Source: a virus
Reading direction: 5' to 3' (one strand)
Length of the DNA: 27,870 bases
Virus record (IMG/VR): IMGVR_UViG_3300030098_003824
Location: 1 to 27,870 of that record
Shown: positions 2,269 through 2,616 of the stretch, piece by piece
How the letters are laid out: the number at the start of each line of letters is the position of its first letter
Numbering within the stretch: the stretch's first letter is position 1
Notes under the pieces: generated by a model
Told to the model about the DNA's origin: nothing
Databases searched by the model: none
What the model saw: only the letters and a program-made list of their open reading frames with translations
Made by a program: the position numbers and the translations under genes

Positions 2269-2288
2269 TGTGTTAGTATTAACACAAT

Positions 2289-2334
2289 CGTTCATCCTGA
2301 TACATTCAGGACGCAAGTAAGCCGACTCGGAACG
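2289..2334 (+). promoter_or_regulatory. Glutamine-riboswitch-like element, copy 1 (Downstream-peptide/glnA class)
   Basis: CGTTC (2289-2293) pairs with GAACG (2330-2334) to close the element. Inside, TCCTGA (2295-2300) and TCAGGA (2306-2311) form a perfect 6-bp hairpin with loop TACAT. It is followed by ACGCAAGTAAG and a short CCG/CGG hairpin (2322-2324 with 2328-2330). The order P1, P2 hairpin, then a C/G-AAGTA-AG junction matches the glutamine riboswitch class (glnA and Downstream-peptide motifs) known from cyanobacteria and at least one cyanophage. It lies in the leader of a short peptide gene, as that class often does. Recognition is from memory of the consensus. Confidence 0.7.
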
Positions 2335-2338
2335 GATT

Positions 2339-2381
2339 CGTTCATCTTCTTCGGGAGACGCAAAAGCCGACTAAAGGAACG
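2339..2381 (+). promoter_or_regulatory. Glutamine-riboswitch-like element, copy 2 (variant)
   Basis: CGTTC (2339-2343) pairs with GAACG (2377-2381). Inside, TCTTC (2345-2349) pairs with GGAGA (2354-2358) through a cUUCGg tetraloop, followed by ACGCAA and AAGCCGACT, identical words to copy 1. Relative to copy 1 it lacks the GT of the CAAGTAAG junction segment, so ligand binding may be weakened or lost. Its 3' part (CCGACTAAAGGAACG) is closer to the glnA-type consensus than copy 1. It ends 32 bases before the ATG of the peptide gene. Confidence 0.55.
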
Positions 2382-2413
2382 GAGTAAAATCCCTACTACT
2401 TTGGAGAAAGCCA

Positions 2414-2557
2414 ATGGCAAAAGTCACTTATCGTGGACACGAATACGATACCGATGAGTATCGTAGAGCTCTTATCGAAGAGCATAACCAATTAAGAAAT
2501 CATGATCTAATGTATCGTGGTATCAAGGTTAGAAGCAAGGCAGTCCCTTGTTCTTAA
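2414..2557 (+). CDS. Short YRG-motif peptide (DUF4278-like) under riboswitch leader
   Basis: A 47-aa peptide starting MAKVTYRGHEYDTDEY. A second copy of the core motif follows at residues 34-36 (LMYRGIKV). The doubled YRG pattern is like the small cyanobacterial DUF4278 proteins, and such peptides occur in Prochlorococcus, Synechococcus and their phages; the family assignment is from memory. GGAG at 2403-2406 lies seven bases before the ATG, a good ribosome site. Transcription from 2239-2268 passes two glutamine-riboswitch-like elements, and a terminator follows at 2581-2606, so this is a one-gene unit. The likely role is in the response to nitrogen status: related riboswitches in cyanobacteria control small proteins that act on glutamine synthetase. 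This peptide's target is unknown. Confidence 0.7.
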   Translation: MAKVTYRGHEYDTDEYRRALIEEHNQLRNHDLMYRGIKVRSKAVPCS

Positions 2558-2580
2558 GTCCAAGAACTTAATACTAATTG

Positions 2581-2606
2581 AGGAGGGTTGTTACCCTCCT
2601 TTTTTT
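2581..2606 (+). terminator. Rho-independent terminator
   Basis: AGGAGGGT (2581-2588) pairs perfectly with ACCCTCCT (2593-2600) around a TGTT loop and is followed by T residues to 2606. It ends the riboswitch-peptide unit. Its loop also holds the -35 of the next promoter. Confidence 0.85.
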
Positions 2607-2616
2607 GTGCTATAAT
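2588..2616 (+). promoter_or_regulatory. Sigma-70-type promoter TTGTTA-17-TATAAT for the thyX unit
   Basis: TTGTTA at 2588-2593 and a perfect TATAAT at 2611-2616 are separated by 17 bases. The -35 lies inside the loop and first stem bases of the preceding terminator. The start would be near 2623, ahead of the 53-aa ORF and thyX. Confidence 0.6.

Follow-up and report, generated by a model that had tools for sequence, protein, structure and literature searches.

Glutamine riboswitches are among the known RNAs closest to the element described here. In the phage hosts, both types activate the genes that they control, and their usual targets are DUF4278 genes, this domain being the N-terminal part of IF17, an inactivating factor of glutamine synthetase (PMC6316151). 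Regarding the glnA type (RF01739), the crystal structure revealed a ligand-induced linchpin pair that joins G23 of J2/3 to C60 at the base of P1, with G23 stacking on the side chain of glutamine (PMC11477058). The riboswitch class, its tandems, its presence in cyanophages and its link with YRG/DUF4278 genes are already published; what appears to be new is the topology of interlocked twin units, a fold for which the literature searched held no description, an earlier notice being possible.

The window, i.e., the whole 27,870-nt stretch analyzed, is by sequence comparison a fragment of a T4-like marine cyanophage; its nearest records are Prochlorococcus and Synechococcus phages, and matches of the window genes identify thyX, phoH, gp59 and gp32 as neighbors of the element. 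The first-pass annotation had described a phage leader with two tandem glutamine-riboswitch-like units, preceded by a promoter and followed by a Shine-Dalgarno sequence, an ATG 32 nt 3' of copy 2, a 47-aa YRG peptide gene and a terminator. All of these parts stood (Table 1), the origin being Kyanoviridae-like, while its picture of two separately folding units and its reading of copy 2 were not supported.

As for transcription, the predicted promoter ends just before the first unit, and its assignment is supported by the relatives, most of which carry a TTGxxx box at a distance of 36-38 nt on the 5' side of P1. An inverted repeat just 5' of the element, like the one that overlaps the -10 box of the window, occurs in 120 of 187 distinct relatives, against 7.9 in shuffles; operator, hairpin promoter or 5' hairpin are candidate roles. 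The arms of the repeat vary and are centered on the -10 box (TGTGTTA..TAACACA, GGTATG..CATACC, GTCATG..CATGAC, GGTCTATAATAGACC). The control of a YRG peptide gene, proposed earlier, was supported; such a gene lies 3' of the element in 302 of 303 relatives. The window peptide scores 22.4 bits against DUF4278 (E 1.6e-4), below the Pfam gathering score of 25.3; 14 of 16 related YRG peptides match the family at E ≤ 0.01 (best 1.7e-7), and no solved structure related to the YRG peptide was found. Between the terminator and thyX there is a 53-aa ORF (2642-2803), matched weakly by several unnamed PHROGs. In cyanophage P-TIM40 (L008), a manA RNA (RF01745, 141.7 bits; 1759-1953) is located directly 3' of the YRG gene and 5' of transaldolase.

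Table 1. Features of the leader and of the peptide gene in the window, with the helices of the proposed nested fold.
Feature	Position	Strand	Basis and remarks
Sigma-70-like promoter	-35 TTGCAT 2251-2256; 17-nt spacer; -10 TAGTAT 2274-2279	+	predicted, read by eye
Inverted repeat TGTGTTA-GTAT-TAACACA	2269-2286	.	overlaps -10 box
Unit alpha	2289-2334	+	glnA-like; CGTTC(2289)...GGAACG(2334); lacks J3/1 GAA of glnA
Parts of alpha	P1 strands 2289-2293, 2330-2334; P2 hairpin 2295-2311; J2/3 CGCAAGUA 2312-2319; P3 strand 2320-2327	+	
Unit beta	2339-2381	+	glnA-like; CGTTC(2339)...GGAACG(2381); lacks J2/3 GU of glnA
Parts of beta	P1 strands 2339-2343, 2377-2381; P2 hairpin 2345-2358; J2/3 CGCAAA 2359-2364; P3 strand 2365-2372; loop-E side AAA 2373-2375	+	
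Outer P1 helix of the composite (proposed)	2289-2293 (alpha) with 2377-2381 (beta)	+	RNAalifold consensus; MFE structure of 2289-2381; capped by cross-unit linchpin
Inner P1' hairpin (proposed)	2330-2334 (alpha) with 2339-2343 (beta), loop GAUU	+	folding; RNAalifold; inner linchpin
Shared P3	2320-2327 AGCCGACU with 2365-2372 AGCCGACU	+	6 Watson-Crick pairs, two C.A; diagnostic pair U2327-A2365
Outer linchpin	C2314 (alpha J2/3) with G2382 (just 3' of beta P1)	+	paired in 320/320 loci
Inner linchpin	G2335 (just 3' of alpha P1) with C2361 (beta J2/3)	+	paired in 318/320 loci, C-U in the other 2
Shine-Dalgarno GGAG	2403-2406	+	sequence
47-aa YRG peptide gene	2414-2557	+	ATG at 2414; two YRG motifs; DUF4278-like; phrog_5049
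Intrinsic terminator	2580-2607	+	9-bp stem 2580-2601, T run, fold z = -4.6

The two units are located where the first-pass annotation had placed them, and their P2 hairpins are as it described them, copy 1 having a stem of 6 bp and copy 2 a cUUCGg hairpin. It had also suggested scanning the leader with the Rfam covariance models: at the gathering scores (35 bits for RF01739, 33 bits for RF01704) the window scan was empty, both units falling just below, while by E-value, computed over all families, RF01739 matched beta (2337-2385, 31.3 bits, E 6.6e-5) and alpha (2287-2336, 27.0 bits, E 1e-3), and RF01704 matched alpha (2286-2341, 30.6 bits, E 1.1e-5). Matches with E-values of 1e-3 to 1e-5 are beyond chance and bear out the relationship with glutamine riboswitches, the single units of the window scoring below the curated limit of RF01739; the relatives P-TIM68 and P-SSM2 reach 35.4 and 35.1 bits with this model, above the curated 35. 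Membership in Glutamine-II (RF01704) was rejected, given the score below 33 bits and the pseudoknot pairs, mostly deleted or nonstandard in the alignment. The full glnA arrangement, with P1, P2, J2/3 AAGUA and J3/1 GAA around P3, is found in the window only when both units are taken as one composite; the GAA of the core reads AAA there, likewise in some relatives.

This division of the core is systematic. It was followed in 320 loci with alpha and beta in fixed order, taken from pattern scans of IMG/VR, each of which fixed letters of one unit only and left those of the partner free, and from cyanophage records; related sequences in this set are not independent events. Ten further isolate records were checked afterward, and a pattern scan of genome contigs was too loose, giving for the most part chance matches. 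Throughout the 320 loci, the alpha J2/3 reads CG(C/G)AAGUA and a single C precedes its 3' P1 strand, and the beta J2/3 reads CG(C/G)AAA, the 3' P1 strand of this unit being preceded by GAA or AAA. In the host order, single aptamers hold AAGUA and GAA in one unit, with the P3 hairpin between them, so each phage unit corresponds to half of a glnA core. Judged from these alignments, alpha and beta are systematically different half-sites, alpha keeping the AAGUA side and beta the GAA side. The suggestion that copy 2, lacking GT, differs in affinity or is structural only was therefore a misreading of a fixed division of labor; the GAA junction is absent from copy 1 no less consistently than GU is from copy 2, a point missed earlier.

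Also missed was that letters covary between the two copies. The P3 strand of alpha is AGCCGACX, or AGUCX in its 5-nt form, complementary to YGCCGACU or YGACU in beta, and the diagnostic X-Y pair across units is Watson-Crick in 318 of the 320 loci, versus a mean of 132.5 and a maximum of 164 in 10,000 shuffles. P3 lengths agree as well, being (8,8) in 209 loci and (5,5) in 105, and an 8-nt strand never faces a 5-nt one; the closing pair of a P3 formed within the unit is standard in just 86 (alpha) and 87 (beta) of the 320. Among 43 distinct aligned elements, the inter-unit pair is UA in 17, GC in 11 and AU in 10, and is broken in none, while the alternative pair inside the unit fails in 21 of 38 distinct sequences. 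The YRG-peptide tree, which has low resolution, implies about 53 changes of the X-Y state and 13 of P3 length, so the covariation is not one inherited state. Gene conversion between the copies was rejected as its source, because conversion gives identical and not complementary copies, and the covarying letters are at nonhomologous positions. Counting against a shared P3, its 8-nt version contains two C.A mismatches.

The same pairing was found out of sample. In cultured P-RSM4, alpha carries AUUCG in place of AGUCG, and beta carries CGAAU, as the nested model requires. A scan in which the alpha letters alone were fixed, with a different second P3 base required, gave 26 scorable loci, all with a fully complementary beta strand (133/133 pairs) and with the outer linchpin; the alpha/beta strands were AAUCG/CGAUU, GAUCG/CGAUU, AAUCU/AGAUU, AUUCG/CGAAU and GAGAUAUG/CAUAUCUU, and one further locus (L539) has GAAAUAUG in alpha and CAUAUUUC in beta. 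Five loci were left unscored: two with an additional beta-strand base, one at a contig end and two apparent chance matches. This P3 covariation would also be explained if each unit kept its own P1 and the P3 strands formed a kissing, loop-loop helix between the units; such an arrangement divides the glnA junction, the exact topology of which is restored by the nested fold, and it leaves unexplained the match of each J2/3 base with the base after the other P1, described next. It is considered very unlikely.

An exchange of the P1 helices requires a match between the J2/3 base of alpha and the base that follows the P1 of beta, and vice versa. The outer linchpin is C-G in 240 loci and G-C in 80, and the inner one C-G in 312, G-C in 6 and C-U in 2; in the window, the glnA linchpin, i.e., J2/3 with the base after P1, is represented by both cross-unit pairs. 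Looked for within the units, it is present in 246 of 320 loci only, with 72 G.G clashes. RNAalifold, run without an input structure, draws the outer P1 and the inner hairpin, i.e., exchanged P1 helices, and the nested structure is lower in energy in 103 of 103 cases (mean -20.2 vs -13.6 kcal/mol). The P1 letters are invariant in the sample, P1 itself having no covariation, and two targeted scans for P1 substitutions among relatives were empty; since these letters never vary, P1 swapping rests on the linchpins, RNAalifold and energy. For the shared P3, the cross-unit linchpins and the P2 hairpins, the demonstration comes from sequence comparison.

These data also bear on the reading closest to the first-pass annotation, by which the leader holds two glnA aptamers in tandem that are independent, have a P1 and a small P3 hairpin apiece, and act pseudo-cooperatively. 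Each unit alone does give a sub-threshold RF01739 match, the identical P1 strands allow by sequence a P1 internal to the unit, and a review counts 157 doublets as pseudo-cooperative systems (PMC9481103). The units of the window, however, are not each complete with a P3 and a linchpin of their own: neither holds both sides of the core, 5-nt P3 strands (AGUCG) are unable to form a hairpin, and the broken within-unit P3 and linchpin pairs, together with the higher energy, point the same way, making this reading most improbable. P3, the linchpins and hence P1 link both units.

The leader is instead, very probably, a glutamine riboswitch in which two glnA-type units build one nested, interlocked RNA. 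The 5' P1 strand of alpha would pair with the 3' P1 strand of beta to give the outer P1, and the 3' strand of alpha with the 5' strand of beta to give the inner hairpin; the strands 3' of each J2/3 would pair across units as one shared P3, so that two three-way junctions, each having a P1, a P2 and a linchpin of its own, would sit back to back on this helix. The outer junction would be a complete glnA core, with AAGUA from alpha and GAA from beta in the loop-E region; the inner one would keep the linchpin and lack loop E. Glutamine would bind at least at the outer site, locking both linchpins and the P1 helices, and the locked fold would regulate YRG peptide translation, probably as an ON switch; the ligand, the number of occupied sites and the direction of control are the parts of the model that we infer. 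The inner junction has no loop-E letters and retains its linchpin, and since the linchpin is formed only with ligand in the known structure, the conservation of the two linchpins suggests a bound-like state at each of the junctions.

An interlocked RNA that is real and has another ligand or none, e.g., a protein-binding or stability element, is unlikely. It would account for the C found in three quarters of the phage elements at the position of G23, the base that stacks on glutamine in glnA (PMC11477058), a change that comes with a compensating partner; the absence of an evident expression platform in the window and a YRG gene without known function there would also agree with it. Against it, G22, the linchpin and the loop-E letters are conserved in phage elements, the same C/G linchpin occurs in a host element on a chromosome, likewise ahead of a YRG gene, and in one clade of relatives an anti-Shine-Dalgarno helix begins at the linchpin base.

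This clade has a G-C linchpin and is termed here C-tail; a 7-bp helix CUCUUUA/UAAGGAG covers the Shine-Dalgarno sequence, and its first base is the linchpin base after P1. The helix is seen in S-CREM1 (L007; 1582-1611) and in 46 other C-tail sequences. In computed folds, the bound-like state lifts Shine-Dalgarno exposure from 2% to 39% in 47 of 47 sequences, and by this prediction the C-tail element is clearly a translational ON switch. The window and its clade lack the CUCUUUA/UAAGGAG helix, and folding of the window in the free and bound-like states gave no computed change in Shine-Dalgarno exposure (0.47 to 0.51), so control there is argued by analogy: like host glutamine riboswitches, the window element probably switches translation of the YRG peptide on. 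CUAAAG (2371-2376)/CUUUGG and UCC/GGA were considered as expression platforms of the window and discarded, as they are not kept across relatives and leave exposure unchanged.

The window element is the compact form. In 158 of the 320 loci the gap between the units is at least 90 nt, and 151 of these contain an ORF that begins immediately within the P2 of beta and terminates in the core of the aptamer, the stop codon being exactly the UGA or UAA formed by CUGAA/CUAAA of the loop-E core in 149 of the 158. At some loci a second nested ORF lies in the P2 of alpha (46 found), and isolate records have annotated genes at the nested positions. The proteins, mainly of phrog_504 and phrog_6471, have two conserved cysteines; the loci include L229, L257, L006, L500, L501 and about 150 others. 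As the nested gene starts next to P2 and stops within the loop-E core, its translation and the folding of the sensor would be mutually exclusive. A two-site riboswitch with both glutamine pockets built from strand-swapped units and a shared helix, with binding cooperative by construction and nested-gene relatives gated by translation, is a tentative proposal, given slightly under an even chance.

Regarding the relation with host aptamers, a host model with one phage-like sequence among its 24 members matches the window as a single composite (2289-2382, E 9.7e-4) made of the 5' half of alpha and the 3' half of beta, skipping the inner 49 nt; the host-only model (R3), without the phage-like host sequence, had no significant match in the window, and in S-CREM1 its best match was still the composite (E 0.007). 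The published S-CREM1 annotation likewise spans both units, with 44.0 bits for RF01739 (PMC9964418), and beta alone gives 33.5 bits. The composite model, run with strict filters against 299 picocyanobacterial genomes, gave three matches: one on a 189,106-base contig, for which there is an IMG/VR phage record of equal length, a second on a contig of 7 kb from a single-cell assembly, taken as phage, and one chromosomal single-unit element; no clearly cellular interlocked tandem was found among these genomes with these filters. A single-unit phage-like aptamer precedes a YRG gene on a host-type chromosome (G159:C1, ~22.9 kb; L467/L499); its P3 is AGCC-AGA-GGCU, the small protein downstream has two YRG motifs, and its linchpin is C/G as in the phage elements. 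This element is a plausible model of the ancestor, and the phage RNA is a case from nature in which an aptamer may have grown through insertion of a half-degenerate copy into its own P3 loop.

In comparison with known systems, the element shares with the glnA RNA (RF01739) the P1 and P2 sequences, J2/3 CG(G/C)AAGUA, J3/1 GAA, the linchpin and a DUF4278/YRG gene downstream; known members have one unit with a hairpin P3, whereas here the core halves lie in two units, P3 is shared and there is a second, inner junction, and for this reading single-unit covariance models undervalue the composite. S-CREM1 (OP535465) carries the same element in a cultured cyanophage, annotated as 'riboswitch glnA' of 99 nt and treated as an ordinary glnA RNA (PMC9964418); it has the G-C linchpin and the anti-Shine-Dalgarno helix, and the window has neither. 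Glutamine-II (Downstream-peptide, RF01704) has in common the CGUUC/GGAACG helix and a small-peptide gene downstream, and differs in the pseudoknot of its model, whose pairs are mostly unformed in the window, where the match is sub-threshold. Since a YRG gene constantly accompanies the element in marine phages, the sensing of host glutamine during infection can be tested directly. Finally, the guanidine-II riboswitch also has two similar units with mutually dependent binding pockets (PMC9481103), joined by a loop-loop contact of two hairpins and specific for another ligand, in place of a nested strand exchange, and tandem glutamine riboswitches likewise place two glnA-like units before one gene (Weinberg 2010, PMC2864571; PMC9481103). 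In the literature the latter count as paired but independent sensors, with more digital or pseudo-cooperative control; the interlocked halves proposed for these phages change the reading of such tandems, as affinity, stoichiometry and cooperativity of one intertwined fold are to be measured on the whole element, and some of the published glutamine doublets may be interlocked elements of this kind.
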